51,982 nucleotides of DNA. It comes from Syntrophorhabdaceae bacterium. GTDB lineage: Bacteria; Desulfobacterota; Syntrophorhabdia; Syntrophorhabdales; Syntrophorhabdaceae. Under the pieces are notes generated by a model that ran no database searches, was not told the DNA's origin, and saw only the letters and a program-made list of their open reading frames with translations. The DNA lies in assembly GCA_036504895.1 (NCBI GenBank), contig DASXUJ010000126.1, positions 1 to 51,982 on the forward strand. Reading direction: 5' to 3'. Made by a program: the position numbers and the translations under genes. Below, piece after piece: positions 11,117 through 45,000 of the stretch; position 1 is the first letter of the stretch, and each line of letters opens with the position of its first letter.

Positions 11117-11132
11117 GGGGGTGCGCGCTCTG

Positions 11133-14048: not shown

Positions 14049-14056
14049 TGAAGTAA

Positions 14057-14809: not shown

Positions 14810-14817
14810 CCCTTCCG

Positions 14818-17208: not shown

Positions 17209-17802
17209 TCAAAAAAACCGGCCCAGTGTCAGCGTGACGGAGTTGATCCCCCTGTTGTCGTGGTTGAGCCCACCGTTGGAGATATGGTGGAGTCTGAGAG
17301 AAGCCAGACAGGTCGTCTCCGGTCCGGCCGCGAACTCTACTCCCACGCCGACCTGGGGGTTGAAATTGAAGCGGAGCCCCTGGCCCTCGACCTGAAAGTC
17401 CGTATAGATTATGCCGATTCCCCCCTCGAGATAGGGGCGAAAGGTTTTGAACGCAAGGCTTTTGAGATAATAGAGGGCGAACATATTCGCCGAGGTCATA
17501 AGTTTCTTGTCGGGTCGCGTAGTCGTCCCGAGACTGGTCTCCACTTTGAACCGAAGCCCGTCCGGGGCCTTGTGACCCCAGACCTTCTCATGGTCGAAGA
17601 GGGCAAAACCCGACAATAACACAAAAGATATATCGTTTTGAGGGGTATAGGAATTCCCTCCGGTGATGGCCATGCCGTAGCGGTCGGCGACATCCCTGAC
17701 CCCTTCCTCGGCGCGGCCCTTATCCGGACAAAACGCCGCCTGAGAGAAGAGCAGGAGGGCGATCAAATAAAAGGTGAGCGTCCTTTTCTTCAAGACCGTC
17801 AT
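17209..17802 (-). CDS. Acyloxyacyl hydrolase, lipid A 3-O-deacylase PagL-like outer-membrane protein
   Basis: This 197-residue protein has a signal peptide (Lys-Lys-Arg, hydrophobic to about residue 24) and an eight-stranded beta-barrel pattern ending in aromatic GRFF. The PagL signature LHHISNGGLNHDNRG is present, with H173 and S175 as the His-Ser pair. The acidic residue of the PagL triad is not obvious: the position 14 after H173 is Asn187. PagL removes the 3-O-linked acyl chain of lipid A in the outer membrane. Within a lipid-biosynthesis operon it may make room on lipid A or act on the cluster product. The ATG at 17802 is 4 nt after the stop of the ketosynthase-like gene; upstream in-frame extension lacks a signal peptide. 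Confidence 0.78.
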   Translation of the reverse strand: MTVLKKRTLTFYLIALLLFSQAAFCPDKGRAEEGVRDVADRYGMAITGGNSYTPQNDISFVLLSGFALFDHEKVWGHKAPDGLRFKVETSLGTTTRPDKKLMTSANMFALYYLKSLAFKTFRPYLEGGIGIIYTDFQVEGQGLRFNFNPQVGVGVEFAAGPETTCLASLRLHHISNGGLNHDNRGINSVTLTLGRFF

Positions 17803-17806
17803 CACT

Positions 17807-18913
17807 TTATCGCACGTCCCGCGAGGCCAGAGTGATAATCCCTGCCTCTCCTGCCGCGCCCAGCTTGAGGCAGCATATGGGCTCCACGCCAAGGTCACGG
17901 GGAAGAGGCGAAATATTCATGGAGGACGGAAGAGCGATCCCGGCCGAAGGGGCAAATATCTTCCTTTCTTTTATGGACGCACACGCCGCCGCCATGTCGA
18001 ACGCCATATTTGTGGGAAAACTCCCGTAGAGAGGCGCATAAGACGCTACGTTCATCTCCTTCGTGATTAATTGACGGTAACGTGAGCCTGATTCTTTATG
18101 GCCGTCGGCGCCGAGGATAAAAAGCCCCTCCTTCCCCTGGAGAAGGTGAGCGCTGTCCCGGTATTCCGTGAGCGCCCCTGTAATGCAGCCGTAACCGTTC
18201 TCCCTTTCTCTCTTGCCCGAAAGGAGAAAGAACGCGGCGCCTTCGCCTAACACCGCACTCTGTCGGTCAAAGAGGAAAGGTTCCGTCCCGGCGGAGGACC
18301 GCTCCACCCCGAAGAAACGACGCCAGCAATATCCCAGCACGTCACAATATTCGTCTACTGCGCCGAAGAGCACCCGCTCCACCCTTCCTTCCCTCAGCCA
18401 ATGAAGGGCCGATATGAGGGCAGAGGGGACCGACATCTCGAACTGACTCACGGTGAGGCATGGGCCGGTGACCCCGAGGAATATGGATATATACGCCGCC
18501 GCGGCGTTATGGACTGAATTTGAAAAATGGGTGGGAGAGGAATAGGCGTCGGTGCCGGTCATAAAGGAATCGAGGAAGCCGAAAGTCCCGGCGCTGGCGC
18601 CATACCCGCTGGCCACAACGATGCCGAGGCTCGCGCGGTCAATATCGAGCATATGGGCGTCTTCCAGGGCGAGGTATGCCCCCAGAAGGGCCATCTTCGC
18701 ATGGTGATCCACCCTTCTCAGCGCCTTCTTCGAGACAAATTTATCGAGGCCCGTCGTGTCCGCGAGAAAAGCGGGCATCTCTTTTGTCCCTTCCTCAGAT
18801 GGAAAAGAAACAGACTGGACCGGACTCGTTCCGCGAGCGAGGGCGGAAGAGAATTCCTCGATATCCGAACCGAATCCCCCCACAATGCCGATGCCTTCAA
18901 CAAAGGCTTCCAT
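17807..18913 (-). CDS. Ketosynthase-like partner lacking the active Cys (chain-length-factor type)
   Basis: This 368-residue protein has the FabF-type thiolase fold. The nucleophile elbow reads CLTVSQFEMSVPSAL, so Glu159 stands where the Cys should be. The two active-site His motifs (HGT, KxxxGH) are not present. Such proteins pair with an active ketosynthase and set chain length, as CLF/KS-beta does in type II polyketide synthases. The active ketosynthase immediately upstream (18915-20114, 1-nt gap) is the obvious partner. KS-beta proteins usually carry Gln at this place, so Glu is unusual. It could instead be a decarboxylating initiation subunit. Confidence 0.8.
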   Translation of the reverse strand: MEAFVEGIGIVGGFGSDIEEFSSALARGTSPVQSVSFPSEEGTKEMPAFLADTTGLDKFVSKKALRRVDHHAKMALLGAYLALEDAHMLDIDRASLGIVVASGYGASAGTFGFLDSFMTGTDAYSSPTHFSNSVHNAAAAYISIFLGVTGPCLTVSQFEMSVPSALISALHWLREGRVERVLFGAVDEYCDVLGYCWRRFFGVERSSAGTEPFLFDRQSAVLGEGAAFFLLSGKRERENGYGCITGALTEYRDSAHLLQGKEGLFILGADGHKESGSRYRQLITKEMNVASYAPLYGSFPTNMAFDMAAACASIKERKIFAPSAGIALPSSMNISPLPRDLGVEPICCLKLGAAGEAGIITLASRDVR

Positions 18914-18914
18914 A

Positions 18915-20114
18915 TTAATTCTCCCCCTTGCCTAACACCAGGACCCCGTTACATCCGCCAAACGCGAGAGATTGGCTGACGGCGGTACTCCCGGTGACGG
19001 CTGTCGTAGCGGCTGCCGGAGATGCGGTTACCTCGGGATCGAAAGTGGTGAAACCGATATTGCCGGGTATCATGCCTCGCTCAAGACAGGCCACGGTAAA
19101 GGCGGCCTCAATGGCCCCGGCAGCTCCCAGGGTATGCCCCGTGAAGCCCTTTGTGGAGAAGAAGGGGACGCCGGGGAGCGTTTCATGAAGGACCCTGCCT
19201 TCAACGCGATCGTTATCCGGTGTGGCGGTGCCGTGGGCATTTATAAAGGCGATATCCGATCCATTCCTGTGAGATAACCTGAGCGCTTCATAAAGGGCCC
19301 GCTTCAATCCCTCACCCTGGGGATGGGGCGCGGTAAGGTGATAGGCATCGCTCGAGGAGGCGTAGGCGAGAAAACGGGCCCGGGGGGATTTTTCTCTTTC
19401 CCGGCAGGAGTCTGCGGACTCCAGTATGAGCATGGCTGCGCCCTCTCCCAGGTTGAGCCCTTTTCTGTCCCGGTCAAAGGGCTTGCAAGGGGTCTCATCG
19501 GTGATCATGAGGGAGATAAAGCCGTTGTAAGTAATGTGACAGACTTCGTCGGCTCCGCCTGCAATGACTATATCGCAGAGCCCCGATTGAATCCACGATG
19601 CCCCTATGCCCACGGCATCGGTGCCGGAGGAGCACGCATTCACTACTGTCTGGCACGGTCCTGTAAGATCGAACTCCCTGGCGATCACCTCGGCGGGGTT
19701 GCTCGAAAGAAAGCGGGTAATAGGCGCCATCTCGGGACTGCCCCCTCTATGAAGCTCCCCGTAAAACACCTCGTTATTCAGCGCCACGCCCACCGTGGTG
19801 CCAATGCATACCCCCACCTTCTTGTTTCTGAGGGAGGCGCGGTCAAGCCCTGCGTCGCCTACGGCTTCATGGGCAGCGGCGAGGGCGAGCTTAGCGGTGA
19901 ACGAGATGCGGGGAGAATCCATTATATTGCCGGGAATTGCGCTCTCAGGCACCTCGAATACGGGATAGGAGATGGCGTGGTTGCCGCAAAACCTTGTAGG
20001 GGGCGCGGGATTCCGCCTGCCCTCGAAGAGGGAATCCATACATTCCCCGAGTGTCCCTCCGGCGCCCGAGAGGCAGCCCACTCCGCTGATGCCGACAGGC
20101 ATTGCCGTCTTCAC
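18915..20114 (-). CDS. Beta-ketoacyl-ACP synthase II-type (FabF-like), active triad
   Basis: This 399-residue elongating ketosynthase has C161 (VVNACSSGTDA), H294 (INAHGTATPD) and H327 (TKGFTGHTLGAAGA) as the complete Cys-His-His set. It condenses malonyl-ACP with acyl-ACP. The start is GTG at 20114, overlapping the ACP stop as GTGA with AGGA about 7 nt upstream. Gene order ACP, KS, KS-like partner is the classical minimal type II synthase arrangement. It is therefore expected to work as a heterodimer with the Glu159 protein downstream. Confidence 0.88.
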   Translation of the reverse strand: MKTAMPVGISGVGCLSGAGGTLGECMDSLFEGRRNPAPPTRFCGNHAISYPVFEVPESAIPGNIMDSPRISFTAKLALAAAHEAVGDAGLDRASLRNKKVGVCIGTTVGVALNNEVFYGELHRGGSPEMAPITRFLSSNPAEVIAREFDLTGPCQTVVNACSSGTDAVGIGASWIQSGLCDIVIAGGADEVCHITYNGFISLMITDETPCKPFDRDRKGLNLGEGAAMLILESADSCREREKSPRARFLAYASSSDAYHLTAPHPQGEGLKRALYEALRLSHRNGSDIAFINAHGTATPDNDRVEGRVLHETLPGVPFFSTKGFTGHTLGAAGAIEAAFTVACLERGMIPGNIGFTTFDPEVTASPAAATTAVTGSTAVSQSLAFGGCNGVLVLGKGEN

Positions 20115-20368
20115 CGGGGAATCCTTTCTTCGATGTACGCCGCAAGACTTTCAATGGTCTGAAAGGCGGCGCGCCCCTCATCGAGGTTCTTCACCTCCAC
20201 CCCGAAATGTTTTTCCAGCAGGACGACCAATTCCACGGCGTCCAGCGAATCAAGACCGAGGCCCTCCCCAAAAAGTGGCGTATCGTCTTCGATCTCTTCG
20301 GGAGTCACATCCTCGAGATTGAGTTCTTCAACGAGGATCTTCTTCAGTCGTTCCTTGGTGGTCATCAT
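20111..20368 (-). CDS. Acyl carrier protein of the first KS/CLF pair
   Basis: This 85-residue acidic ACP has GLGLDSLDAVELVVLLE, with S41 as the phosphopantetheine site. The ATG at 20368 is preceded by a GAGGG-type ribosome-binding site and overlaps the 3' end of the LpxL-like gene by 41 nt. In-frame extension to 20488 lies wholly inside that gene and is unlikely. Its stop overlaps the start of the ketosynthase gene, so expression of ACP and KS is coupled. Confidence 0.87.
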   Translation of the reverse strand: MMTTKERLKKILVEELNLEDVTPEEIEDDTPLFGEGLGLDSLDAVELVVLLEKHFGVEVKNLDEGRAAFQTIESLAAYIEERIPR

Positions 20369-21329
20369 GCTTCCCTCTCTTTTGATTAATTGTCTGCAAA
20401 TCGTGACTCCACATGTCGTAAAAATTAAAGAACTGGTACGGATGTGCGGTGGTATAGGATTCAAGCGCCTCTGCGAATCGGCCGACATAGGGAAGAAAAT
20501 CTCTATGGCTCCGCCCCGCGTCGTGAGGCACGCGGATTATTGCGGCTATCTCCAGGGTATAACCGGAGGAGCTCGATTTGTGGGAAAAGAAGACCACAAT
20601 GGGCGCCCCTGTTGCCGCGGCGATCTTGAAGGCGCTGAAGGGGAAGAGGACCTTCCCTCCCATGAAATCAACGGTCGCCGCCCCCTTGGGGCTGCCTAAA
20701 AGCCGGTCGCCCATTACACAGAGGACCTCGCCCCTCTTGAGTAAGGCTATTATCTCTAAAACGCCGCCCATGTAGCCCCTCGGGTCGATTATCCCGTAGG
20801 GGCATGGAATCCCTGCATGTTCATAGTAGTGAAGATCGATGTCCCCTTCCTCGCGCTGCAAAAGGAGGTGCACAGGGGCGCCCAGAAATCGAAGGGTTGA
20901 CATGGCGGTCTGCCAGCATCCCACGTGGGCCGTCATGAGGATCATACCTCGTCCTTCTTTGAGGATTGGGAGAATCGCCTCTTTTTCGCTGAATTCCCAG
21001 GTTATCTTCTCTTCACCCAGGATTCCGATCACCGCCCTGTCTATCAGGGCCTTTCCGAGGTTGAGATAGAGGAGGTAGCGATCCAGGAGCCTTTTGACGC
21101 GTCCTTTCTCCTTAAACCTGCGGGAGAGGTAATAGTCCGACTTCTTTCGCGTTGATGGAGCGAAGAAGACGTAGAAGGGCACGACAAAAGAGAGGACAAA
21201 GTATGCAAACTCGCGGCCCGCGTACTTAATGACGAGGTAGAAGAACCGGTGTCCGAAGGTCGAACCGATACTCCGGCTTGTCCATTGCGGAGCGCCGGGC
21301 CGGGTCGGAGTGGAGTCAGCTGTTTCCAT
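20328..21329 (-). CDS. LpxL/HtrB-type lysophospholipid (lipid A) acyltransferase
   Basis: This 333-residue protein has an N-terminal hydrophobic segment (about 38-58) and the LABLAT/LpxL acyltransferase block MTAHVGCWQTA. H135 is the catalytic histidine, and Gln140 stands where the canonical HX4D/E acid would be. FMGGKVLFPFSAFKIA and DFLPYVGRFAEALE are further family landmarks. Related proteins occur in APE clusters and are thought to transfer the polyene acyl chain to a membrane anchor. The gene overlaps the glycosyltransferase gene upstream by 14 nt and the ACP downstream. The Gln variant could alter activity or be common in this subgroup. Confidence 0.8.
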   Translation of the reverse strand: METADSTPTRPGAPQWTSRSIGSTFGHRFFYLVIKYAGREFAYFVLSFVVPFYVFFAPSTRKKSDYYLSRRFKEKGRVKRLLDRYLLYLNLGKALIDRAVIGILGEEKITWEFSEKEAILPILKEGRGMILMTAHVGCWQTAMSTLRFLGAPVHLLLQREEGDIDLHYYEHAGIPCPYGIIDPRGYMGGVLEIIALLKRGEVLCVMGDRLLGSPKGAATVDFMGGKVLFPFSAFKIAAATGAPIVVFFSHKSSSSGYTLEIAAIIRVPHDAGRSHRDFLPYVGRFAEALESYTTAHPYQFFNFYDMWSHDLQTINQKRGKHDDHQGTTEEDPR

Positions 21330-22500
21330 GGTTTTCCCTCTTCAGGAGCAAGGCGGTCACATAAATGACCGCCCCGGTGAGGATCCCTAACAGGGGCCCG
21401 AGAATAAGGGAGCCGAGAAACCACTCGAAAATCCTCTCCAGGGCCTGATATCCGAGGGTTTCCAGTGAAACCTCAGTCAGGAATCTGCCGTGACGGATAA
21501 AATACCCTGCTTCTATACAGAGTGCGGGGACCAATGGAGGTATGCAGATCTGACCCGCCGCAAGGGCCATCAACTTGTTTAACCGAAAATAGTTGGCGGC
21601 AAAGAGGGTGGTGATACTCTGGCAGGCGATCAGCGGCAAGGCTCCCATGAATACGCCGAGCCCCCCGGCCACTGCAAGCCTTTCAGGCGAGTTGTTCCCC
21701 GTGAGGAGCAATCTCAGGGACCTGAGGGGTTTGAGGATGCTGACCTTCCCTGCCTTGGCGGTCGTGAACCTTCTGTGCGGGAAAGGAGTGATGGCCCTCA
21801 GGCTAAGTCTCGTATTGAGCAGGCTCAGGCGAATATTGTCCATAAAGAGGCGAAAGTGAGACACCCGCAGGGAGGGAGGGGGGTAGTATACGGAGATATC
21901 GACCTCTCGCAAAGTGATTCCGGCCCAGACCGACTTCACGAGAACCTCTATCTCGAAGTCGTAGTGCCGCACCCTCAGCGTCAGCCATCCAAGAAGGGGG
22001 AGAGGGTAGACACGAAAGCCGCTCTGAGTATCTTTCAACATGGAACCCGTCTGAACCCTGAGCCAGAAGTTGGAGAAGCCGCGGCCGAACCGGGAAAGAA
22101 GGGGGACAGAGGTTGAATCGAAGGTCCTGGTCCCCACGATGATAGCATCGGGATCTTCGTCGATCAAGGGGAGAAAACGCAGGTAATCAGCAGGATCGTG
22201 CTGCCCGTCCGCGTCAATGGTCACTATGTGGGTTGCCCCCCTCTTACGCGCTTCGTTGGCGGCAGTGATGATGGCCGCGCCTTTCCCTCTATTTTCGGGA
22301 TGCCTTAACTCGATTATGGGAAGCTCCGCAAGGGTCTCCGGGCCGCCGTCCGTGCTCCCATCATCGACGACTATCACGTTATCGTTCACCGCGAGGGCCC
22401 TGAGCACCACGTCCCGGAGGGTTTTCCCATGGTTGTATACAGGGATAACAAGGAATACGTTCGATATGTCAGGACTCTCTTTTGCGGCTATCATTAACAT
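21316..22500 (-). CDS. Family 2 glycosyltransferase fused to a DUF2062 domain
   Basis: The N-terminal half (about 10-235) is a DPM1/DolP-mannosyltransferase-like GT2. It shows VIPVYNHGKTL, VVDDGSTDGG, the metal-binding DADGQHD and the later GFRVYPLPLL. The C-terminal part (about 265-390) is a DUF2062 membrane domain with three or four helices. The product is a membrane-bound sugar or amine transferase acting at a lipid headgroup. GT2 plus acyltransferase genes are a recurrent pair in APE clusters, sometimes fused. Start codons are clustered (TTG 22506, ATG 22500, ATG 22494) with no strong ribosome-binding site; I use 22500. Confidence 0.82.
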   Translation of the reverse strand: MLMIAAKESPDISNVFLVIPVYNHGKTLRDVVLRALAVNDNVIVVDDGSTDGGPETLAELPIIELRHPENRGKGAAIITAANEARKRGATHIVTIDADGQHDPADYLRFLPLIDEDPDAIIVGTRTFDSTSVPLLSRFGRGFSNFWLRVQTGSMLKDTQSGFRVYPLPLLGWLTLRVRHYDFEIEVLVKSVWAGITLREVDISVYYPPPSLRVSHFRLFMDNIRLSLLNTRLSLRAITPFPHRRFTTAKAGKVSILKPLRSLRLLLTGNNSPERLAVAGGLGVFMGALPLIACQSITTLFAANYFRLNKLMALAAGQICIPPLVPALCIEAGYFIRHGRFLTEVSLETLGYQALERIFEWFLGSLILGPLLGILTGAVIYVTALLLKRENHGNS

Positions 22501-22537
22501 TGGCAAGGTTTTTTAGGGCACAAGGAGAACTTTTTCG

Positions 22538-23449
22538 TCAAGGCCGCGACAGGAATTGAAGGGCCTTTTCATTCACCAGATCCGGCTGCTCGATGCTCAG
22601 GCCATGACCGGCACAGGGAATGATTTCCGTGTGTATTTGGGGCGCCACCTTGTCGAGGCGGAGAACGGCACTTCGGGCGGAGTAGATCTTTTCATTTTCA
22701 CCGACCAGAATGAGGGTGGGCACTTTGATGCCCGCCAGTTCCCCATCCTTTAAGAGGGTGGGGCGCACGAGACGCTTGGGCTTGAAACATCGCGATGCGA
22801 CACGCATATCACTTACCCCATCCTCCAAAATTGCCCGGCTCCTCCTGTCTTTGCACATGAGGTCGGTGAAGAGCCATTTCATGAAACTTTCAGCGAACAG
22901 ACCGGGCGACAAGGAGACGAAAACCGCGCGCAGCATAAAGGAGAGGCTCACAGGCAATATCGTGCAAGCCGGGGCCAGAAGCACTATTTTCGCAAGGCGA
23001 TTTGAAAAACGGAGCGCATAGAGGCATGATATCCAGCCTCCATAGGAGAGACCCATCAGGTTGAATGGGTTCCCGAGTTCAAGTCCGTCGACGAGCTCGT
23101 CAAGCCATCGTACTAAATCATCCGGGTCTTTGACTGCGCGGGTATACACACTGCGCCCGTAATCATAAATGTTATCGACCGCATAGGTCCTGAAGGGCCC
23201 GGATAAAGCCCGTATGTTCGGGATCCACATGAGCGACGTGCTCCGGGCCCCGGACAGCAGTACCAGGGGCGGCCCATCGGACGGCCCGCTTACGCGCACG
23301 AAGGTGGGGCCGTAATACGTATCGATCACTGCAGGCTCCGAAGGGACGGGCCACTGCCTTGCCCGCACATCATATAGGTCCAGGTACTGCGCTTGAGCGC
23401 GGGTCGATCGAAAAGGGTGATAGGAGGGCACGGGCCCTGCATCAGGCAT
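22538..23449 (-). CDS. Alpha/beta hydrolase
   Basis: This 303-residue alpha/beta hydrolase has nucleophile S135 in the elbow GLSYGG, H282 in CAGHGLS, and a Glu in VGENEKIYS (E251 or E253) as the probable acid. The oxyanion region LLSGARSTS precedes. Substrate is unknown; within this operon a thioester, ester or lactone of the acyl product is plausible. It overlaps the upstream radical SAM gene by 8 nt and no signal peptide is seen, so it should act in the cytoplasm. Confidence 0.82.
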   Translation of the reverse strand: MPDAGPVPSYHPFRSTRAQAQYLDLYDVRARQWPVPSEPAVIDTYYGPTFVRVSGPSDGPPLVLLSGARSTSLMWIPNIRALSGPFRTYAVDNIYDYGRSVYTRAVKDPDDLVRWLDELVDGLELGNPFNLMGLSYGGWISCLYALRFSNRLAKIVLLAPACTILPVSLSFMLRAVFVSLSPGLFAESFMKWLFTDLMCKDRRSRAILEDGVSDMRVASRCFKPKRLVRPTLLKDGELAGIKVPTLILVGENEKIYSARSAVLRLDKVAPQIHTEIIPCAGHGLSIEQPDLVNEKALQFLSRP

Positions 23450-24887
23450 GACGGTTATTGGTCCAGGCGAATTTCAGGAAAGCCGCAAGATGGGAGAAAA
23501 ACCTTAGCCAACTGTCAGGGGAGCGCCATACCATGGTGAAATAGTGCCAGAGCCCCCTTGGCCTCAGGATATGTCTCATATAAAACCGGGTGAAGAGCTG
23601 TTCCAGCCTCTCCCGTGTCATACCCTTCGGTATGAACTGGAAATGCATACAGTCCATTTTCTCCCAGTCCTCATCGAAAGCCCCATAATCCCCTATATCT
23701 TTGTAGAGTGCCGATCCGGGAAAGGGGGTGAATTTTGACACATTGATGTAATCGATGGGGAGGGAAAAGACATACTCCATGCTCTTCTTCACGCTCGCTT
23801 GCGTCTCCCCGGGCAGTCCCATCATCATGAGCCCCTTGACCAGAATCCCCGCTTTCTTGATGAGCCGTATTTTTTCAGCCACAAGATCGAGGCCGGCGCT
23901 GCTGCGATGCTGCGAAAGGAGCTCTTCGTCTCCATTTTCAATGCCAAGACTGATCATCCAACACCCTGCCGCCTTCAGCCGTTCCAAAAGATCAACGTCG
24001 ACATGTTCCGCCCTCACGGCGCAGTTAAAGGTCATTCCCAAGGGTCGGTCTACCATCATCCGGGTAAAAGCCTCCACCCTCTTCCGGTGAAAGGTGAACT
24101 GGTCGTCGTAAAGATTGACGTGCCGCACGCCGAAGCGTTCCTTCAGGTACCGTAGATGCTGATAGAGATACTCCGCGGAGTTGTATCGGTAGCCCGTGGG
24201 AAAGACGGATCTGTCGCAATAAGTGCACCGATAAGGGCAGCCGCGGCTCGATGTGCAACTGGAATTCGGGGTATGGGGGTAATTAAAAATGGGGAGGCTG
24301 TATGTCTCAGGGTAGCCATCCAGTTTTTCATATGCAGGAAAGGGAAGCGTGTCAAGGTCGAGGAGGGGGGAGCGGTAGCCCGTAAAGCAGATACCATCCG
24401 AACCTTCCCTGTAAAGCAGGCCCTCGATCAGAGAAGCATTCTCTCCTTTGGCCTCCAGGAGCTCCGCCATCGTTTTTTCACCCTCTCCCACCACGGCGAA
24501 GTCGATGCCCGGGAACGACTCCAGGGCCTCCTTCTTCAAAGCCGACACGTGGTGGCCTCCGAATACGGTTCTTACGTCGGGCAGGACGCTTTTTGCCCTT
24601 TCCGCGATGCGAAGACCGTCGCGGAAGTTTGCGGTGGAACAGCTGAAGCCGATGAACGCGGGTCTTGCGTCTCTCAGGTATTCTTCGATAAGGTTGCCCG
24701 AGCGGGGCTTCGCGTAGCAGTCGATGATTTTCACTTCAATCCCGCTTTTCTCCAAATAGGCAGCGATGCTCGCAAGCCCCAGAGGGGGCATGATGTTGGC
24801 CATCCTTGAAATGTCGCGGCCCGCGGAGTCGGCGCGATAGCCGAGGGGATGGATAAGGAGCACTTTTCTGAAATCAAGAGGGCTCAT
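23442..24887 (-). CDS. B12-binding domain radical SAM protein (third of three in tandem)
   Basis: This 481-residue protein has an N-terminal cobalamin-binding domain (PPLGLASIAAYLEKSGIEVK, then FIGFSC, VFGGHHVS and VGEGE). The radical SAM core follows with CPYRCTYC (C217, C221, C224). The HRKRVEAF helix and the FTPFPGSALY segment near the C-terminus are typical of the B12-radical SAM family with DUF4080-like or HpnR-like ends. The reaction is unknown; methylation or carbon-carbon bond formation on an acyl chain is the best guess. It starts 3 nt after the previous gene stops, and three genes of the same class follow each other without gaps. Confidence 0.85.
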   Translation of the reverse strand: MSPLDFRKVLLIHPLGYRADSAGRDISRMANIMPPLGLASIAAYLEKSGIEVKIIDCYAKPRSGNLIEEYLRDARPAFIGFSCSTANFRDGLRIAERAKSVLPDVRTVFGGHHVSALKKEALESFPGIDFAVVGEGEKTMAELLEAKGENASLIEGLLYREGSDGICFTGYRSPLLDLDTLPFPAYEKLDGYPETYSLPIFNYPHTPNSSCTSSRGCPYRCTYCDRSVFPTGYRYNSAEYLYQHLRYLKERFGVRHVNLYDDQFTFHRKRVEAFTRMMVDRPLGMTFNCAVRAEHVDVDLLERLKAAGCWMISLGIENGDEELLSQHRSSAGLDLVAEKIRLIKKAGILVKGLMMMGLPGETQASVKKSMEYVFSLPIDYINVSKFTPFPGSALYKDIGDYGAFDEDWEKMDCMHFQFIPKGMTRERLEQLFTRFYMRHILRPRGLWHYFTMVWRSPDSWLRFFSHLAAFLKFAWTNNRHA

Positions 24888-24890
24888 GAT

Positions 24891-26261
24891 TTAGAGCCCA
24901 GCCTGCGGTTTTTGATAAGAAATGAGTTTCTGCCACGGAAAACCTTGATGACCGAAGCGGTACATGACCTCGAGCTTTGATTGAAACGCCGAGGGAGGGA
25001 AAATCCGGTCCCTCCGGCCCCCGAAGGCGTTCTCGAGGGCTTCGTTCATTTGGGCCGCATCCACTTCGGGGGAAAAATAGAATACAGGTTTCAAGAGGGA
25101 GTCTTCTTCCTCTATCACCCCTTCCTCTATGGACAACGTGCGCAGCGCAGCGCCCGGATAGATGCGTACTCCGGAGAATGCGAGGACCAGGCAGTTTTTC
25201 AGAGACGCAATATTGTTCAGTCCCTCTCCCAGGGTATTCCGTGTTTCCCCCGGTCCTCCGAACATCACGTAGTGGACACAGGGGATATTCTCCCCGACAC
25301 AGGCATCGTTGAAATGGACCACATCATCGAAGCCGAAGGGCTTGTTGAGCCCCTGAAGGGCGGTGTCGCTTGCCCCATCTGTTCCCGCCTCCACGGCACA
25401 GAGGCCCGAGCGCTTTAACAATCGCAGGTCTTTGCCATGGAGCCCGCGGGGCTGAAAAAATGCGGACCACTCGATTGTTATTTCCCGGCGCAGGATCTCC
25501 TCGATAATCCCGAGATAATGATCTTCACCATCATTGAATATCGAATCAGTGAAAAATACGCTGTGAGCATGGTGGTCTTTTTGCAGTTGCAAAATATCTT
25601 CTATCACCGACCCCGGTTCTCTGCACCTGCAGCTCGTCCCTTCCACCGCCGGATAGGTGCAATAAATGCAATTATACGGGCAGCCGCGCTTGGTGTGAAG
25701 ACCGACCACCCCACTCTTCTTTGTGTAGTATTTGATTAATTTCCTGTCCCATAGCGGCCGGAAAACCATGTCCCCCTGGTGAGCCGTTTCCGTCTCCCCC
25801 TTTCTCAAGATGGCCCCGGTCGATTCTCCCCGCTCTAACCGCCCGATCAGACTGTTGAAGAGAACTCCCCCTTCTCCGACAATCCCGTAATCTCCTCCGA
25901 CATAGGCGAGGATTTCCTCGGGCATGATTGAAAAAGCCGGGCCGCCTAAGACCACGGGAGCCCCCGTGAATTTCCTGACGGTTTCTCCCAATGCCCTGAC
26001 CGAGTCGAGGGTCCAGACTTCCTCCGCCGTAAAAGAGTCGACGTTATCGATATTGCGGAGCGATACCCCGACAATATCGGGTTTGAACGCCCGGACGGCC
26101 TCGCCGAGCCCTTCGTGAGATCCTTTTTCAACGAGGAGATCGAACTGCTTCACTCTATGCCCCCGGGAGGACAGGGCAGAGGCAACCACTGCCATCCCCA
26201 GGGGGTATACGGGATAAGGCTCGGTCATCGTGTTGGTGGAAATGAGGAATACCCTGCTCAC
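24891..26261 (-). CDS. B12-binding domain radical SAM protein (second of three in tandem)
   Basis: This 456-residue protein has a cobalamin-binding domain (PLGMAVVASALSSRGHRVKQ, then IVGVSLRN, VVLGGPAFS and IVGEGG). A radical SAM domain follows with CPYNCIYC (C194, C198, C201), and a C-terminal extension of about 150 residues contains FYFSPEVD. GTG start at 26261 overlaps the previous stop as GTGA. Its sequence is clearly different from its two neighbours, so the three are not recent duplicates and probably catalyse different steps. Confidence 0.85.
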   Translation of the reverse strand: MSRVFLISTNTMTEPYPVYPLGMAVVASALSSRGHRVKQFDLLVEKGSHEGLGEAVRAFKPDIVGVSLRNIDNVDSFTAEEVWTLDSVRALGETVRKFTGAPVVLGGPAFSIMPEEILAYVGGDYGIVGEGGVLFNSLIGRLERGESTGAILRKGETETAHQGDMVFRPLWDRKLIKYYTKKSGVVGLHTKRGCPYNCIYCTYPAVEGTSCRCREPGSVIEDILQLQKDHHAHSVFFTDSIFNDGEDHYLGIIEEILRREITIEWSAFFQPRGLHGKDLRLLKRSGLCAVEAGTDGASDTALQGLNKPFGFDDVVHFNDACVGENIPCVHYVMFGGPGETRNTLGEGLNNIASLKNCLVLAFSGVRIYPGAALRTLSIEEGVIEEEDSLLKPVFYFSPEVDAAQMNEALENAFGGRRDRIFPPSAFQSKLEVMYRFGHQGFPWQKLISYQKPQAGL

Positions 26262-27523
26262 CCGCCCGTCCCCTGAACCTTGAAAGAGCGCTTCTTCTTT
26301 GTGTCGTATCTCCGGTATGTCCCGTTGTCCATTTCCCGGCGGATGATTTTTTTGAAGAGCTCACCCATCTTGAGCTGGTAACCGCCCCCCGCATAAAAAG
26401 TGTCCCATGCGTACCTATACATTTCAAGGAGCTTTTCCGGAGACATCAGCTTCGGTTGGAAAACCACCTTATCCGCCGTATAATCGATCCAGTTGTTGCT
26501 CAGGATCCTCCCGTCTTTTTCGAAGCGCTCCCGTATGGGGGAATGGGGGAATGGGGTGAGGATGGTGAACTCTGCCATATCGAGCCCGATCTCGAGAAGA
26601 AACTCTACCAGCCTTTTTATGTAATCTTCGTCCTGGTCGTCTGTTCCCAGGATAATAGTACCCTCGACGCCGATGCCATGGTCTTTCAACCTTTTTATCC
26701 TGGTCCGGATCACCTCGGACGTATCGAAGATAGCCTGGTACACATACCAGCTTCCTGCCTTCGCCGCGAGGTCAAGCACCTTGTCGTCATCCAGAATAGG
26801 GTGGGAGACCCAGTTCTTCTTGAGGGGGATCATGGCGGTAAAAAGGTCTATGACCCATTCCCGGTCCTGGGCGAGAGAGTTGTCGACCAGGAAGAGCCGG
26901 TTGTTGGGGATGGACTCCATCTCTTCGATCACTGCGTCAATCGGGCGGGGACGGAACTGCCTCCCCCCGAGGAAGCCCGTGCAACAGGGGAAACAGTTGA
27001 ATCTGCATCCTCGTGACGCGTGGACGAGATCGAACATCTGGACGCCCCGGTAATTATAGAGGGAACGGTTGAGGATGTCCCGTCTCGCGGTTCCCACGAG
27101 GTGAATATCGGGATAGTCCGTCATGTAGTCGTATACTTTTTTGAGCTTTCCCTGGGTGAAGTCCCGAAGCACGACCTCGAATCTTCCCTCTGCTTCACCG
27201 ATGAACACGCTGTCCCCATGAAGGACCACCTCTTCTCTGTGGAGCATTACCGCGATCCCGCCGAATATGACGGGAACCCCTCTCTGCCTGTATGCGCGGG
27301 ATATCTCGAAGGCTCTCGGGAGCTGACTTGTGAGCATCACTGAAAGGGCCACGAGGTCAGGGTCGTCGTCAAAAGGTATGGACTGAACGTTTTCGTCAAT
27401 AAAGGTAATGTCGACCTCGGGAGGAACTGTTGCGGCGAAGACCGCGGGCCCATGGGGCGGCAGATGAAACTCCCGTTGTCCTTCGAGCTTCGGCCAGGCC
27501 GGGTAAATAAGGGTCATCTTCAT
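26258..27523 (-). CDS. B12-binding domain radical SAM protein (first of three in tandem)
   Basis: This 421-residue protein has a cobalamin-binding domain (MTLIYPAWPKLEGQ, then DLVALSVMLTSQLPRA, VIFGGIAVML and FIGEAEG). The radical SAM motif CRFNCFPC (C173, C177, C180) is followed at once by C181. ATG at 27523 has AGGAGAG 6 nt upstream; longer in-frame starts up to 27754 lie inside the preceding gene. It belongs to the HpnJ/BchE-like superfamily. The exact substrate cannot be told. The late segment LTPFPHSPIRERFEKDGRI is a common feature of these enzymes. Confidence 0.85.
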   Translation of the reverse strand: MKMTLIYPAWPKLEGQREFHLPPHGPAVFAATVPPEVDITFIDENVQSIPFDDDPDLVALSVMLTSQLPRAFEISRAYRQRGVPVIFGGIAVMLHREEVVLHGDSVFIGEAEGRFEVVLRDFTQGKLKKVYDYMTDYPDIHLVGTARRDILNRSLYNYRGVQMFDLVHASRGCRFNCFPCCTGFLGGRQFRPRPIDAVIEEMESIPNNRLFLVDNSLAQDREWVIDLFTAMIPLKKNWVSHPILDDDKVLDLAAKAGSWYVYQAIFDTSEVIRTRIKRLKDHGIGVEGTIILGTDDQDEDYIKRLVEFLLEIGLDMAEFTILTPFPHSPIRERFEKDGRILSNNWIDYTADKVVFQPKLMSPEKLLEMYRYAWDTFYAGGGYQLKMGELFKKIIRREMDNGTYRRYDTKKKRSFKVQGTGG

Positions 27524-27546: not shown

Positions 27547-28260
27547 TTAGGTGATGGATGCGGTGCAGATGCTCGCGAGAGTGTTCAGGTCTTCCACCTC
27601 TTTCCCGTCGTAAAAGAGGGTCCCCGACCCATTTTGTGTCAGTGTGCCGTACGAGGGCCGCCGGGAGGAGTTTTCGTTCTGGAGCACGAAGAAGAGGGCT
27701 CCGGGAACCGAACGTCCTATCCCGGCGAGGGCCGGAGGGGCCCCTGCGTCGCACACGCCTGCAAGGGCCGAATCGTATTCCCCCTTCCCAATACCCCTCA
27801 TGGCCATGCTCACACCCGGAAGACCAGAAAGGACCGATTCGGAAAGGGCAAAGCTCGGACCGCTAAGTCCGAAATGGATTGCCGCTTCTCCGAGAAAAGT
27901 ACTAGTAAGGGCATATACGAAAAGATGGGGGCTCGCCAGGCGGCCCCCTTCAGGTATGACCGTATCACAGTAATCTTCATCCGTCTTGAGGCATCCATAG
28001 ACCGTGGAGGCGATTATAGCGATTTCTCTCGGGTCCGTCCATTCGTCGAGCCCCGCGTCTTTCAGGGCCAGGGATATGGCGGATACGCCAAGCCGGGAAT
28101 AGCTGTCCATCCTGCCGAACCGGGGGAAAGAGCCGGGGGAGACATCTTTTCTCGAGAGCTTCGGCAACGGTCCGTCGCCGCCTGCACGGAAAGGGCCTTG
28201 CCTCCCCCATCCTGCGCCCGCGGTATTCACCCAGCCCACACCTGTGAGATTCGCTTTCAA
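27547..28260 (-). CDS. Beta-ketoacyl synthase chain length factor, ApeC-like (Ketoacyl-synt_2)
   Basis: This 237-residue protein is about the size of the single-domain CLF proteins of APE clusters (PF13723) and shares their pattern. The pattern is GRMDSYSRLGV near residue 50, AIIASTVYGCLKTDEDY, ASPHLFVYALTSTFLGEAAI, and an elbow region FALSESVLSG with no Cys. It therefore looks complete rather than truncated. It should pair with the active ketosynthase encoded just upstream. The start is a TTG overlapping the previous stop (TTGA); no ATG or GTG lies nearby that keeps the family N-terminus. Confidence 0.78.
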   Translation of the reverse strand: MKANLTGVGWVNTAGAGWGRQGPFRAGGDGPLPKLSRKDVSPGSFPRFGRMDSYSRLGVSAISLALKDAGLDEWTDPREIAIIASTVYGCLKTDEDYCDTVIPEGGRLASPHLFVYALTSTFLGEAAIHFGLSGPSFALSESVLSGLPGVSMAMRGIGKGEYDSALAGVCDAGAPPALAGIGRSVPGALFFVLQNENSSRRPSYGTLTQNGSGTLFYDGKEVEDLNTLASICTASIT

Positions 28261-29390
28261 TATGATCCCGGCCGCTTGAGGATGATTGCGGCATTGATTC
28301 CGCCAAATCCGGAGTTTGTGGTGAGGAGGTAGTCGCCGGCCATGGAAACGGGTTTCGACCCGACAAGGCCTTCCGCGCCTCTCTCGGGATTGACGAAACC
28401 CACGGTGGGAGGAATGGTCTGCTCCAGGAGGGTCTTTGTCCCCAGAGCCACCTCGATACCCCCCGCGGCTCCGAAGGTATGCCCTATACACCCTTTCACG
28501 GAGTAGAGGGGAGGGCAATCTCCGTCGAAAAGGGTGTGAAACGCGGTCAGCTCCATGAGGTCGTTCTGGATGGTTCCTGTTCCGTGGGCGCTTATCCCCG
28601 CAATATCACCCTTTTCTATCCCCGCTAGGGCAATCGCATTGGAGGCCGCCCGGAGCAGGCCCAGACCTTTCGGGTCGGGAGCCGTGACATGAAACGCATC
28701 ATCGGCTATGCCGAAGCCTTTCACGATGCATAGGGGCATATGACCCTTTTGCCGAGCACGGGTTGAGCTCATGAGCAGAAGAAATGCCCCTCCCTCGCCG
28801 GGGGAGAGACCCGACCGATCTTTGTCGAAGGGCTTGCAGGCAACGCCCGACAGGGCCTGGAGTGCCGAAAAACCGGAAAATAAGAATTCGGTCATTGCAT
28901 CCGCACAGCAGATGAGTACCGATTCTACGCTTCCCGACGAGATCATGGCCGCACCCTGGGCCACTGCAATCGTGGAAGAGGCGCAGGCGGCGCCTATAGT
29001 CATTACGCCGCCCCTGAGACCCAATTTTGCCGCCACTTTTTCCCCGATTGAGGACGGCAGAATGTCTCCCGGGTCAAAGGCGAGACCCCGTCTCATTTTT
29101 TCCAGGTTGTCGATGCCGGCTTTTGTCGTAGCGGCGATGACCAGGGCATCGGTAGGAGCCCCGTTAAGCTGACCCAGGAGCCGGTCTAATATGGTTGAAA
29201 CCAGGGAGCCGGGCCCTACGGCTTCCAATCCGCGAATTGTTGCGGCTACCGTGCTCCGGTACGCCTGTGTGGGAAAGCGGTCTATTTCGCCTATTGCCGT
29301 CGTGCCTGATATAACCTTCTGCCATGTGGCTTCCAGGCTATCTCCTGCCGCGGTTATCGCGCACGCATCCGTGATCCAGACTTCCCTCAA
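28257..29390 (-). CDS. Beta-ketoacyl-ACP synthase (FabF-like), active triad
   Basis: This 377-residue ketosynthase has Cys136 (IGAACASST), His269 (ISAHGTGTIQ) and His304 (VKGCIGHTFGAAGG). I place the start at TTG 29390, overlapping the thioesterase stop as TTGA. The protein then begins REVWITDACAITAAG, which matches the FabF N-terminus. Upstream in-frame GTG 29411 or TTG 29420 would add a short non-homologous tail. Followed directly by a Cys-less ApeC-like CLF, it forms the second KS/CLF pair of the operon, probably the ApeO/ApeC equivalent. Confidence 0.86.
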   Translation of the reverse strand: MREVWITDACAITAAGDSLEATWQKVISGTTAIGEIDRFPTQAYRSTVAATIRGLEAVGPGSLVSTILDRLLGQLNGAPTDALVIAATTKAGIDNLEKMRRGLAFDPGDILPSSIGEKVAAKLGLRGGVMTIGAACASSTIAVAQGAAMISSGSVESVLICCADAMTEFLFSGFSALQALSGVACKPFDKDRSGLSPGEGGAFLLLMSSTRARQKGHMPLCIVKGFGIADDAFHVTAPDPKGLGLLRAASNAIALAGIEKGDIAGISAHGTGTIQNDLMELTAFHTLFDGDCPPLYSVKGCIGHTFGAAGGIEVALGTKTLLEQTIPPTVGFVNPERGAEGLVGSKPVSMAGDYLLTTNSGFGGINAAIILKRPGSY

Positions 29391-29857
29391 TGGAACTGCC
29401 CCGCTTTCCACTTTTCGCAAAATTCTCTGTAAAAAGGCGGCGGAATAAGGAGGAGATTGCCTTTTGCATCCAGCATTATCTGAACCGTATATCCTGTGGT
29501 CGCAAGGAGGCCTTCCTTGTCGCGTATCAGATATTCTATATCGATGCGGGCCGCTTCGGTCCAGTGGAGAATGCTCTGGATGGTGAAATCGTCGTGGTAC
29601 CTCAGTGGCCGATGATAGTCCGAGTGCATGATTCTTATGGGCGCAATGATGCCGTTCCTCTGCAGGTCCAGGTAGCCGAGGCCGTACTTCTCTCCGGCCG
29701 CACAGCGTGCGTCTTCGAAATAGCTTGCATACCGGCCGTGCCAGACAATACCGAGGGGATCCGTCTCTTCGAACCGCACCCGCCTTTCTACGGTGATTAT
29801 GAGGGGCGGTGGATTATCTTTTCGGAAGGGAAAGTATGGTTTACGCATGATCTTCAT
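29387..29857 (-). CDS. Acyl-CoA/ACP thioesterase, 4HBT hotdog family
   Basis: This 156-residue hotdog protein has the YbgC/4HBT catalytic region RFEETDPLGIVWHGRYASYFEDAR (D33, H40, E48). It hydrolyses acyl thioesters. APE clusters contain a thioesterase of this kind (ApeK), thought to edit or release chains. The ATG at 29857 has an AGGGG-type ribosome-binding site. It is 26 nt downstream of the dehydratase stop and coupled to the ketosynthase downstream. Confidence 0.85.
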   Translation of the reverse strand: MKIMRKPYFPFRKDNPPPLIITVERRVRFEETDPLGIVWHGRYASYFEDARCAAGEKYGLGYLDLQRNGIIAPIRIMHSDYHRPLRYHDDFTIQSILHWTEAARIDIEYLIRDKEGLLATTGYTVQIMLDAKGNLLLIPPPFYREFCEKWKAGQFH

Positions 29858-29883: not shown

Positions 29884-30273
29884 TCAGACAGACCCATGGC
29901 CCCTTTCGGAAAAAGTGAGGAGCAGGGAGGCGGCGAGGCCTTCGCCGATAGTCAGCGTTGCCTCAAAGCCGGTCTCTCCTTTCATGATACGCTCGCGGTA
30001 CTGCACCGTTACCTCGCTGCCGGGATGTATTTCCATACGGAATTTGGCCTTGATGATGGAAATGAGCGCGAGAGGGCGGCGCTGTATCTCCTCTGCCATT
30101 GTGAGGACCGTCAGTACCTGCATGAAGGCGGGAAGGACCGGATAGCCGGGGAAGTGGCCGGAAAACCCCACGAAGTCGGGTGTAAAAGTATAAGACTGTG
30201 TGAATACTCCGGTTTCCGTCTCCCTTGCGGGGCCGGATGCCGATAGGTGTATGGCAGTTTTTAATAGATCCAT
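29884..30273 (-). CDS. 3-hydroxyacyl-ACP dehydratase, ApeI/FabZ-like hotdog
   Basis: This 129-residue single-hotdog protein has GHFPGYPVLPAFMQ (H40 as the catalytic His), the FabZ/FabA signature in the ApeI version. It dehydrates 3-hydroxyacyl-ACP to the trans-2-enoyl form, keeping double bonds if no enoyl reductase follows. No enoyl reductase gene is seen in the cluster, consistent with an unsaturated product. The ATG at 30273 is 4 nt after the MMPL stop; longer in-frame starts fall inside that gene. Confidence 0.83.
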   Translation of the reverse strand: MDLLKTAIHLSASGPARETETGVFTQSYTFTPDFVGFSGHFPGYPVLPAFMQVLTVLTMAEEIQRRPLALISIIKAKFRMEIHPGSEVTVQYRERIMKGETGFEATLTIGEGLAASLLLTFSERGHGSV

Positions 30274-30277
30274 CCGG

Positions 30278-32662
30278 TCACCCCATCTTCCGCGAACGAT
30301 AGAAGGCGGGTACGACAAAGAGAGCGGACGGTATGGCCCCGCACATGCCGAGAAGCACCGATATGCCGATAGAGTAGAGGGCGGGGTGGCGGGCAAGCGT
30401 CAGGGCGCCCATCCCCACGAGGCTTGTGAGTCCGCCGAGAAGGACGGCCATGTTCGTATTGTCGTCATTTCCTTGAGAGATGCGGCTCACCATGAAAATA
30501 CCGAGGTCTACGCTCAAACCGATGACAAGGATGGTGGCTATGATGTTGAAAAGGTTAAACTCGATGCCCCTCCATCCCATGGCGCCGAACATAAAAATGA
30601 GGCCTGCGGCCACGGGAACCGCAGCGTAGAGAACTTTGCTCCACGAGCGGAAGACCAGAGAGAGAAAAACAAGGATAACGATCGAAGCTGCAATAATGTA
30701 GCTCACGAAGTTCTTGACCATGGCCTTGCTGATCGTCTCATTGAAGCGGGAGTTTGACACAAACCGGTGGACAAAAGGGGTATTTGCCCGATTCTCGAAG
30801 AGGGCGGCCACTTCCGGGGTGTCGGGAACCAGAGTGAGGACCCGCCAGTTGGGGCCTTCACGCACAATCATGGAGTCTATCACATCGGCAAACCCGGCCT
30901 TTCTGAGACCTTCCGGAGTAACCTCAACCGGCGTGGCCTTCAGCGTCTCCAGAAAGGGCTCGAAAGCCTGAGGGGTAAAGCCTGTCTTCACGCTTTCCTG
31001 CTCAAGAAGTCTCTTTACCATGTTTCGGTTGGCGCCCGACCATTGCGCTTCCCAGCGGCGCCGGTTCGCCTCCTGCGTTCCCGCCGAAGGCAGCAGCGGT
31101 GCGAGACTGATGATCCCCTCGTCAGGAACTTTCCCCTTGAGGTAGGAGAACAACCGGTCGTTATTTTTAAGGGCCGATTCAAGGTCCGCGCCTTCTGCAA
31201 AGACCATTGCAAGTCCGCGGAAGTCTCCCCAGGTCTGTTTCAGTTGCTCTTCCATTACGCTTAATGACTTGGGGATCATGCTCACCGCGCGCATATCGCC
31301 GTTGAACTTGAGCCGGCTTCCCTGCCACAGGCAAAGGACCATGAGGAGGAGCCATCCCGCGATTATGATGCCCCTGCCGAATGCCTTCGTGGCGGGAACG
31401 GGGATGGCTGAAGAGCGCCTTCGCGGCGGCAGACCCCGGATGAAATGGGGGAGAATGACAAGGGAAAAGATAAGGGATGCGATAATGCCGATAATGGAAA
31501 AAAATGCGATTTGACGCTGCCCGGGAAGCTCGGAAAAGAAGAGGGCGCTGAAAGTTGCCATGGTGGTTACGCCGCTCAACAGCACGGGGCGTGAAATGCG
31601 GGCAACCGCTTCCCCCTTGTAGTCTCCCATGTCCCGGAGCGAGAAGTAAGTAAATATGGGATAATCATCGGCAATCCCCATGAGTACGGAACCAAAAGCA
31701 ATAGTCACCGCAGAGATGGTGTGGTAGACGCACAAGACCCCCGCAGTGGCGATGCAGACCACCGAGGTGGGTACGAGAAAAACAAAGATCGCCCTCCAGT
31801 TCCGCATGAAAAGAAAGAGGAGCAGGAGAATGGTAAGGGATGCACAGGTGAGTATGACAAAGAGGTCTTCCTTTATGGTCTCCGCATTCGCACTGGTGTA
31901 GGAGTGGCCGCTCAAGAAGGAAACGGCGATGCCGGGCGTGCGGTGGGCGTCGATAACCCCCCTCGTGTAATCGATCAGATGCTTTGCCCCCAGGGCATCG
32001 GTAATCTTTATAGGGGTTTCGGCGATGAGAAGTCCATTTTTGTCGTCAGCGCTTATGAAATGGTTCTCCTTGAGGACCATCCCCTTAAACATATTCATGT
32101 GTCGGAGCTTCTCGAGGATAAGCAGGTGAAACTGGAGCGGATCTGCCTGGAATAAGGGTTTCATGACCCAGCCCTCAGGAGAATTGAGGGTGACCCTGAT
32201 CTCTCTGAGCCTGGAGTCGACGTTTTCAGGAGTAAGGAGTCCCCTGGTCCTCTCCACATCCTTATCAGTCATAAGGGAAGGACCGCTCTTAAGGACCCAG
32301 GAGAGGAATTCATCGGGCGCCGGCATCTCCGGACCTGCGATCACGCGGCGGTAATAGGGCATTTTCAACGCCCCCGCGAGCGTGTCCTGAGCTTCCATAA
32401 GGGCCTTCCGGTCAACTCCGGGACCCGCCTTGAGATTGATGACCACCTTCTGCATAAAAGGAGCCTGCTGGAGAAGGCGGAAATCTATTGCGGCGTCCGA
32501 GGCGCCGTCGGGAAGTAAAGGGCTGACGTCTTCACTCAGTTTTATGCTCTTGAGAGCAAAGGCGCTCAAGGCCATAACCAGGGCGATTATGGCGTACAGA
32601 AATATCCGGCGATGCTGGAAGAACTCAAAGACCCGTGAAAATATGGTGTAAAAAGATCCCAT
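30278..32662 (-). CDS. MMPL/RND-family exporter
   Basis: This 794-residue inner-membrane protein has the two-fold RND layout. TM1 is near residues 18-36, followed by a large periplasmic domain, then TM2-6 around 258-410 (including ILLLLFLFMRNW and VLMGIADDYPIFTYFSLRD). TM7 is near 425, then a second periplasmic domain, then TM8-12 around 650-790. Proteins of this size without a fusion or porin partner (COG4258) occur in APE clusters and are thought to export the acyl product from the inner membrane. It lies directly next to a LolA-like carrier: the LolA stop and MMPL start share one base (TGATG). Confidence 0.87.
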   Translation of the reverse strand: MGSFYTIFSRVFEFFQHRRIFLYAIIALVMALSAFALKSIKLSEDVSPLLPDGASDAAIDFRLLQQAPFMQKVVINLKAGPGVDRKALMEAQDTLAGALKMPYYRRVIAGPEMPAPDEFLSWVLKSGPSLMTDKDVERTRGLLTPENVDSRLREIRVTLNSPEGWVMKPLFQADPLQFHLLILEKLRHMNMFKGMVLKENHFISADDKNGLLIAETPIKITDALGAKHLIDYTRGVIDAHRTPGIAVSFLSGHSYTSANAETIKEDLFVILTCASLTILLLLFLFMRNWRAIFVFLVPTSVVCIATAGVLCVYHTISAVTIAFGSVLMGIADDYPIFTYFSLRDMGDYKGEAVARISRPVLLSGVTTMATFSALFFSELPGQRQIAFFSIIGIIASLIFSLVILPHFIRGLPPRRRSSAIPVPATKAFGRGIIIAGWLLLMVLCLWQGSRLKFNGDMRAVSMIPKSLSVMEEQLKQTWGDFRGLAMVFAEGADLESALKNNDRLFSYLKGKVPDEGIISLAPLLPSAGTQEANRRRWEAQWSGANRNMVKRLLEQESVKTGFTPQAFEPFLETLKATPVEVTPEGLRKAGFADVIDSMIVREGPNWRVLTLVPDTPEVAALFENRANTPFVHRFVSNSRFNETISKAMVKNFVSYIIAASIVILVFLSLVFRSWSKVLYAAVPVAAGLIFMFGAMGWRGIEFNLFNIIATILVIGLSVDLGIFMVSRISQGNDDNTNMAVLLGGLTSLVGMGALTLARHPALYSIGISVLLGMCGAIPSALFVVPAFYRSRKMG

Positions 32663-40462: not shown

Positions 40463-40484
40463 ATCCTTATCGAGTACCGCCGGT

Positions 40485-44930: not shown

Positions 44931-45000
44931 GTCCAAAAATAGCATCCATATTCACAATCCGGTTGATTCGATCTTGGTTCGAGATAAGGAGAGGTCTATT

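Follow-up and report, generated by a model that had tools for sequence, protein, structure and literature searches.

A recurrent cassette of B12-type radical SAM genes in candidate envelope-lipid clusters of anaerobic bacteria

To our knowledge, the search for the genes behind ladderanes and the polyunsaturated lipids of strict anaerobes has gone on for well over ten years and has yielded no solved pathway. Fatty-acid gene clusters outside the anammox bacteria that carry radical S-adenosylmethionine (SAM) proteins are now routinely labelled 'ladderane'. Flexirubin is a yellow-orange outer-membrane pigment lipid. The closest described systems are the type II fatty-acid synthesis (FASII) clusters of Kuenenia stuttgartiensis and Desulfotalea psychrophila, which contain SAM enzymes and phytoene-desaturase-like genes (Rattray 2009, PMC2649909), the flexirubin and dialkylresorcinol (flx and dar) clusters of Chitinophaga pinensis (PMC3992019), and the aryl polyene (ape) clusters (PMC8253772). 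The cluster of D. psychrophila is syntenic with that of Kuenenia and the organism made no ladderanes; it contains C31:8 and C31:9 hydrocarbons, and a Pfa synthase was not found (PMC2649909). In aryl-polyene systems, complete sets of ketosynthase (KS), FabG and dehydratase yield polyenes without desaturases (PMC8253772). Here, we analyse a stretch of 51,982 nucleotides from a Syntrophorhabdaceae bacterium (assembly GCA_036504895.1, contig DASXUJ010000126.1; hereafter the window), in which three consecutive B12-type radical SAM genes, A, B and C, lie inside a lipid cluster and a fourth, D, lies apart from them. Radical SAM-bearing polyene- or ladderane-type lipid clusters with a TIGR04072 protein are a known kind; new are the C-B-A cassette and its combination with a dialkylresorcinol (Dar) module in an anaerobe.

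The cassette occupies the minus strand in the order C (26258-27523; 421 amino acids), B (24891-26261; 456 amino acids) and A (23442-24887; 481 amino acids), with a 4-nucleotide overlap between B and C and a 3-nucleotide gap between A and B. D (9821-11116; 431 amino acids) is encoded on the plus strand and is convergent to the operon of the other three. An earlier sequence-only reading of the window had described three genes lying end to end and a convergent fourth copy at 9821, and both descriptions are exact. A longer mechanical open reading frame (ORF) extends the start of C to 27754 and has no support among homologues. As that reading had also claimed, all four proteins combine a CxxxCxxC motif, present once in each (C217 in A, C194 in B, C173 in C and C206 in D), with a cobalamin domain: the B12-binding profile PF02310 scores 98.6, 60.6, 36.3 and 50.1 bits in A, B, C and D, respectively, above the Pfam cut-off of 32.1, which C clears narrowly. 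A, B and D also pass the Radical_SAM profile PF04055. The score of C is below the cut-off of this profile (21.4 versus 29.5 bits), although 34 of 36 members of the C family match it at E<=0.001. The four proteins differ throughout, as had been stated, with pairwise identities of 23.5-29.4% (about 24% among A, B and C). The term 'lipid operon' likewise holds, as Pfam and NCBIfam assign KS and chain-length-factor (CLF) proteins, an acyl carrier protein (ACP), a dehydratase, LolA, MMPL, a family 2 glycosyltransferase (GT2) and others to the genes around the cassette.

With relatives of B as bait, 80 named loci and another 20 regions of at most 20 kb were gathered and compared with the window. The gene order dehydratase-thioesterase-KS-CLF-C-B-(A)-GT2-LpxL-ACP-KS-CLF is found again in Desulfobacterota (= Thermodesulfobacteriota), Nitrospirota, Omnitrophota, Lentisphaerota, Verrucomicrobiota, Planctomycetota, Acidobacteriota and candidate phyla. 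Across about ten phyla C remains 60-81% identical, as against 30-50% for its neighbours. In the B-baited loci, C has a median identity of 66% to the window; the corresponding value is 42% for B, 59% for A where this gene occurs and 28-53% for the majority of the remaining cluster proteins. The median pairwise identity in the same loci is 62% for C versus 41% for B. C is the core enzyme of these clusters, being the radical SAM protein that is always present and the most constrained protein. Moreover, the divergence of C correlates with that of B (Mantel r 0.80), KS (0.85) and GT2 (0.77), with 0 of 2000 permutations reaching these values, which makes C a long-standing partner of the cluster rather than a late arrival.

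B follows C in 61 of 63 loci, a count that we discarded as a measure of adjacency because the loci had been collected via B. The search was repeated with C as the sole query in 345 genomes of the window's phylum, of which 44 contain C. C and B are direct neighbours in 18 of 20 genomes with a B score >480 bits, which argues that the cassette is not a product of chance. In other families of the phylum, C is separated from B by 1-22 kb or lies on a different contig. All ten opened loci in which C is not directly beside B are lipid clusters with KS, FabG, LolA, GT2, MMPL or ACP genes. Therefore, C goes with lipid clusters of this class, its position next to B is characteristic of the clade of the window, and A is optional. 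The cultured type strain Victivallis vadensis DSM 14823 (L144) carries a minimal C-B cassette together with KS/CLF, ACP, GT2, LpxL-like, MMPL and LolA genes; no A was found at this locus. The lipid can therefore be sought directly in a cultured carrier. TIGR04072-type proteins also come in a third arrangement: in L156-L166, most of them from Bacteroidota, genes resembling B occur without C beside FabG, KS and LpxL-like genes, some of them with DarG and DarH.

C has no name in the curated libraries searched. It stays far short of all NCBIfam cut-offs (the highest score being 52.6 bits against TIGR04013, cut-off 251), and a scan of 36 family members returned the same best families. The predicted structure shows the full B12-type radical SAM architecture, with a Rossmann domain and a radical SAM barrel (predicted local distance difference test, pLDDT, 90.3). 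Its best fold match is AprD4, a diol dehydratase not known to depend on cobalamin, along the whole length of C (Z 31.2, root-mean-square deviation 2.5 A, 372 residues). C differs from AprD4 in sequence (17% identity; 21.3 bits against the AprD4 model NF033070, cut-off 500), in its cluster-binding motif CxxxCxPC and in lacking an aminoglycoside context. Most other radical SAM proteins have an aromatic residue at the position of the proline in this motif (Pro179), which is kept in 63 of 63 C sequences. Cobalamin binding by C is putative, as PF02310 is barely passed and the closest fold is AprD4. The residue after strand 3, which lies under the cobalt in solved enzymes, would be Met63 in C and is conserved in 36 of 36 sequences (register inferred).

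In contrast to C, B belongs to a curated family, TIGR04072 (rSAM_ladder_B12), which it matches with 626.9 bits (cut-off 360) over profile positions 1-442 of 443. Against the tryptophan 2-C-methyltransferase model TIGR04428 it scores 124.8 bits and does not reach the cut-off of 500. The AlphaFold model of B (pLDDT 92.5) is closest in fold to the tryptophan C2 methylase TsrM (Z 35.1; next protein 27.0), with 25% identity over 440 residues. In TsrM, methylation takes place at an sp2 carbon and involves no radical; Arg69 of this enzyme blocks the lower face of the cobalamin, and its Glu273 ligates the unique iron of the cluster and blocks SAM there (PMC8992657; for Arg69 also PMC13331322). Arg69 of TsrM aligns with Arg69 of B, which all 43 B sequences share, while the position of Glu273 (position 241 in B) is Ile or Val in all 43. 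Thus, by alignment, B looks like a protein with a TsrM-like cobalamin pocket and an iron site apparently able to bind SAM, and its substrate is almost certainly not tryptophan.

A resembles BchE (190.6 bits, cut-off 481) and HpnJ (179.2 bits, cut-off 578), and D resembles BchE and the hopanoid C-3 methylase HpnR (192.3 bits, cut-off 650), all far below cut-off. Bacteriochlorophyll or hopanoid roles for A and D, as suggested by the best NCBIfam names, were rejected at such scores. The residue expected under the cobalt appears to be Arg69 in B, Met63 in C and Thr84/Thr85 in A, with tentative registers for A and C. Since these residues differ, as do the likenesses in family and fold, a different reaction for each enzyme is likely, in line with the sequence-only reading. 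That reading had further proposed methylation of sp3 carbons or the formation of strained rings. This part is not borne out, as the nearest relatives point instead to TsrM-type sp2 methylation and to the diol dehydratase AprD4; sp3 methylation or ring building is possible, and the evidence favours neither over sp2 methylation or dehydrogenation. None of the four proteins falls in a family with an established non-lipid substrate: B is a member of a 'lipid biosynthesis' family, and none of the curated cut-offs is attained by A, C or D.

The gene set of the window matches the published flexirubin and aryl-polyene sets (PMC3992019, PMC8253772). The resemblance to flexirubin clusters rests on the dialkylresorcinol module, which comprises a resorcinol-forming ketosynthase of the StlD/DarB family (11100-12281, plus strand; NF005293, 553 bits, cut-off 450), DarG (15832-16224, minus strand; NF053536, 146 bits, cut-off 70) and the BtrH-related acyltransferase DarH (14818-15831, minus strand; NF053550, 464 bits, cut-off 300). 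Two stricter models are not reached, namely the DarB exception model (464 bits, cut-off 550) and the flexirubin DarG equivalog (137.6 bits, cut-off 170). In addition to the DarB, DarG and DarH families, the window shares with the flx and dar clusters several KS, a ketoreductase, dehydratase, thioesterase, deacetylase, acyltransferase, LolA, glycosyltransferase and exporter, including the type II KS/CLF assembly; it differs from them in four extra B12-type radical SAM genes and in the ammonia-lyase, CoA ligase and DarA considered below (PMC3992019). The ape clusters share the logic of KS/CLF pairs, the ApeI-like dehydratase, the thioesterase, LolA/MMPL-type export and acyltransferases, whereas the window lacks an aryl-activating ligase and has radical SAM and Dar genes (PMC8253772). 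D and darB overlap by 17 nucleotides (window 9821-12281), and the two genes are adjacent in all five relatives with a close D (L068, L071, L075, L080 and L136). D may replace DarA in an anaerobic dialkylresorcinol synthesis. Literature searches for published B12-type radical SAM proteins linked to dialkylresorcinols or acyl lipids found nothing on point.

We propose, with a probability of roughly 0.6, that the cassette is a tailoring unit in an anaerobic, flexirubin-like outer-membrane lipid pathway and modifies the polyene chain. Judging from gene content, two KS/CLF pairs together with FabG, the ApeI-like dehydratase and ACP would build a polyene acyl chain. C, aided by B and sometimes A, might then alter the chain by radical chemistry while it is bound to ACP or just released. 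The step of C would probably be of a C-H activation or dehydrogenation/dehydration type, given the closeness of its fold to AprD4. For B, the most likely function is that of a TsrM-type cobalamin-dependent C-methylase, which would pass the methyl group of methylcobalamin on to a nucleophilic sp2 or enol carbon; alternatively, B could act in a radical mode because the iron-blocking Glu of TsrM is absent. A may add an optional further modification. D would work with DarB in a separate resorcinol module, perhaps in place of the aromatising DarA under anoxia, and DarH, GT2, the LpxL-like transferases, MMPL and LolA might attach the chain to resorcinol, a glycolipid or both and export the product.

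Several points weigh against this proposal. No activity or product is on record for any member, and the resemblance of C and B to AprD4 and TsrM is one of fold, at 13-25% identity. The 'polyene' character of the chain is read from gene content, and CrtI-like genes could desaturate the chain by another route. The genome of the window, rated 100% complete, contains no ammonia-lyase of PF00221 and thus no tyrosine or phenylalanine ammonia-lyase, and no coenzyme A (CoA) ligase was found in the window, which is without an aryl starter system; therefore, the starter unit differs from that of flexirubin. Finally, darA was not identified in the window.

A bolder version of this proposal, which we regard as speculative and rather doubtful, is that C founds an unnamed radical SAM family whose members act on ACP-bound polyenes in a new way, either by forming C-C bonds or by dehydrogenation. 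In the clade of the window C would be coupled to a TsrM-like B with an open iron site, and in anaerobes of about ten phyla the pair would make a new class of lipid, a polyene resorcinol or glycolipid that is ring-modified or methyl-branched. If C or B indeed performs new polyene chemistry, it would provide useful enzymology and possibly new lipid biomarkers. In any case, the comparison singles out a highly constrained, unnamed radical SAM protein as the core of these clusters.

Among the alternatives, anaerobic synthesis of polyunsaturated fatty acids or hydrocarbons, in which radical SAM and CrtI-like proteins serve as desaturases as Rattray proposed for Desulfotalea, appears unlikely. It would account for the C31:8 and C31:9 hydrocarbons of D. 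psychrophila, where no Pfa synthase was found (PMC2649909), and agrees with the two CrtI/CrtD-like genes in the window (36056-37597, minus strand, CrtD/CrtI-like; 41570-43222, plus strand, similar to CrtI and carotenoid isomerase), both encoding flavin adenine dinucleotide (FAD) proteins. The AprD4-like fold of C is also compatible with dehydrogenation or dehydration. However, the DarB, DarG and DarH genes together with MMPL, LolA, GT2 and LpxL-like genes point to an envelope lipid and not to a free hydrocarbon, and KS/FabG/dehydratase sets suffice for polyenes in aryl-polyene systems (PMC8253772). It is very unlikely that the radical SAM proteins cross-link two chains or close inter-chain rings in the manner of Tes, membrane-spanning-lipid synthase or GMGT synthase. 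Lipid radical SAM enzymes of this kind are known (PMC11868695), and a set of several radical SAM proteins and two KS/CLF pairs would fit products with two chains, but no Tes chain appears in the PDB sequence matches of A-D (at 0.01) or among the listed fold matches of B and C, although a missing match is no proof. Equally improbable is a modification of resorcinol or another aromatic head in place of the chain. The presence of Dar genes would fit it, as would the nearest characterised relatives of B, TsrM and BzaD, which methylate aromatic carbons. Yet C and B are kept in many loci in which no Dar genes were found in the 10-kb flanks (for example V. vadensis L144, L113 and L114), and there they stay with KS, GT2 and LpxL-like genes.

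The window also shows some of the features expected of a ladderane-type cluster, that is, a TIGR04072 radical SAM protein with FASII genes and CrtI-like FAD enzymes. With the Kuenenia and Desulfotalea clusters it shares active and inactive FabF paralogues, ACP, FabG, glycosyltransferase and polysaccharide deacetylase genes and an anaerobic host (PMC2649909); KS and LolA genes are further common to the Kuenenia cluster and the window. The query with B returned no anammox genome, and genomes with hydrazine synthase were identified via HZS_alpha, 16 of which were searched for B and C. B exceeds 430 bits in only four of the 16, and relatives of C there reach only 31-38% identity. One of the four, inferred from matching gene order to be Kuenenia (G463), has B beside a SPASM-type radical SAM gene and a CoA ligase gene. 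A FastTree phylogeny groups Kuenenia-type B with the Desulfobacterota loci L057, L060, L063 and L064 apart from the window clade, with an unsure long-branch placement; the clusters of these four loci are 45-57% identical to that of Kuenenia in most shared genes. The CoA-ligase, SPASM-type radical SAM and methylase genes of Kuenenia have no tblastn match in the window at 1e-5, where C, A and the Dar module stand instead. L223-L226 carry these Kuenenia-type genes at 33-59% identity, the methylase in two of the four. Because its B falls in a different clade and the signature genes of Kuenenia were not found, the window cluster represents a sister type and not the ladderane-candidate cluster itself, which weakens the link to anammox ladderanes. 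Hence, even though B is homologous to the kuste3342-type radical SAM protein of Kuenenia (33% identity, 289-292 bits), the formation of ladderane-like fused cyclobutanes, the suggestion made for the homologous genes of anammox bacteria, is the least probable explanation, and a direct ladderane assignment was rejected on phylogeny, gene content and patchy occurrence in anammox genomes. D. psychrophila, with its syntenic cluster, made no ladderanes (PMC2649909). The results separate at least two cluster types, with that of the window closer to flexirubin-like envelope lipids.

A hybrid locus in Desulfobulbaceae (L119) contains C and B together with a Kuenenia-type CoA ligase (35%) and SPASM-type radical SAM protein (48%) and links the window type to the ladderane-candidate type. 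A second TIGR04072-like radical SAM protein of about 475 amino acids is encoded in most hydrazine-synthase genomes tested (L217:9329-11828 in the Kuenenia-like G463, and its relatives L185-L195) and is more widespread there than the kuste3342-type gene; in G463 it is directly followed by a gene that by eye resembles chalcone synthase (type III polyketide synthase). A distant homologue of C (L216:5214-6557; about 31-34% identity) lies upstream of the Kuenenia fatty-acid cluster and outside the ladderane-candidate genes of the published lists consulted (PMC2649909, PMC4790861).

The lipid cluster spans about 30 kb, and its minus-strand operon runs from about 41 kb to 12.7 kb. It begins with genes for a BamE-domain protein, a FabG-like ketoreductase and a polysaccharide deacetylase (38835-41060), followed by a FabB-like KS (37537-38757), the CrtD/CrtI-like protein, a KS (34830-36113), a PlsC-type acyltransferase (33764-34549), a LolA-like protein (32662-33348) and an MMPL exporter (30278-32662). 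The FabA/ApeI-like dehydratase (29884-30396), a 4HBT thioesterase (29387-29857), a KS with intact active site (28257-29420) and a CLF-like KS (27547-28518, where only the C-terminal part of the mechanical ORF is coding) precede C, B and A. Downstream of A lie an alpha/beta hydrolase (22538-23449), the GT2 with DUF2062 (21316-22506), an LpxL-like acyltransferase (20328-21329) and ACP (20111-20488), and then the second pair, a KS with intact Cys/His/His (18915-20114) and a CLF-like KS without active-site Cys/His motifs (17807-18913). The operon ends with a PagL-like outer-membrane barrel protein (17209-17898), DarG, DarH and an ABC exporter of two genes for an ABC-2 permease and an ATPase (12699-14114 and 14057-14965). 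According to the catalytic residues, the window contains two genuine KS/CLF pairs and two more intact KS. An Rfam search returned no cobalamin riboswitch or other RNA at the gathering threshold.

Outside the lipid cluster, a very large plus-strand ORF of >2336 amino acids (44974-51981) is cut by the contig end; it has no Pfam match in its first 509 amino acids and is by its look perhaps a cyclic beta-glucan synthase. At the other end of the window, a sigma-54 activator with XylR_N/V4R domains (5734-7341) stands beside FAD, molybdopterin, DctP and cytochrome c3 genes, apparently in a separate anaerobic catabolic locus.

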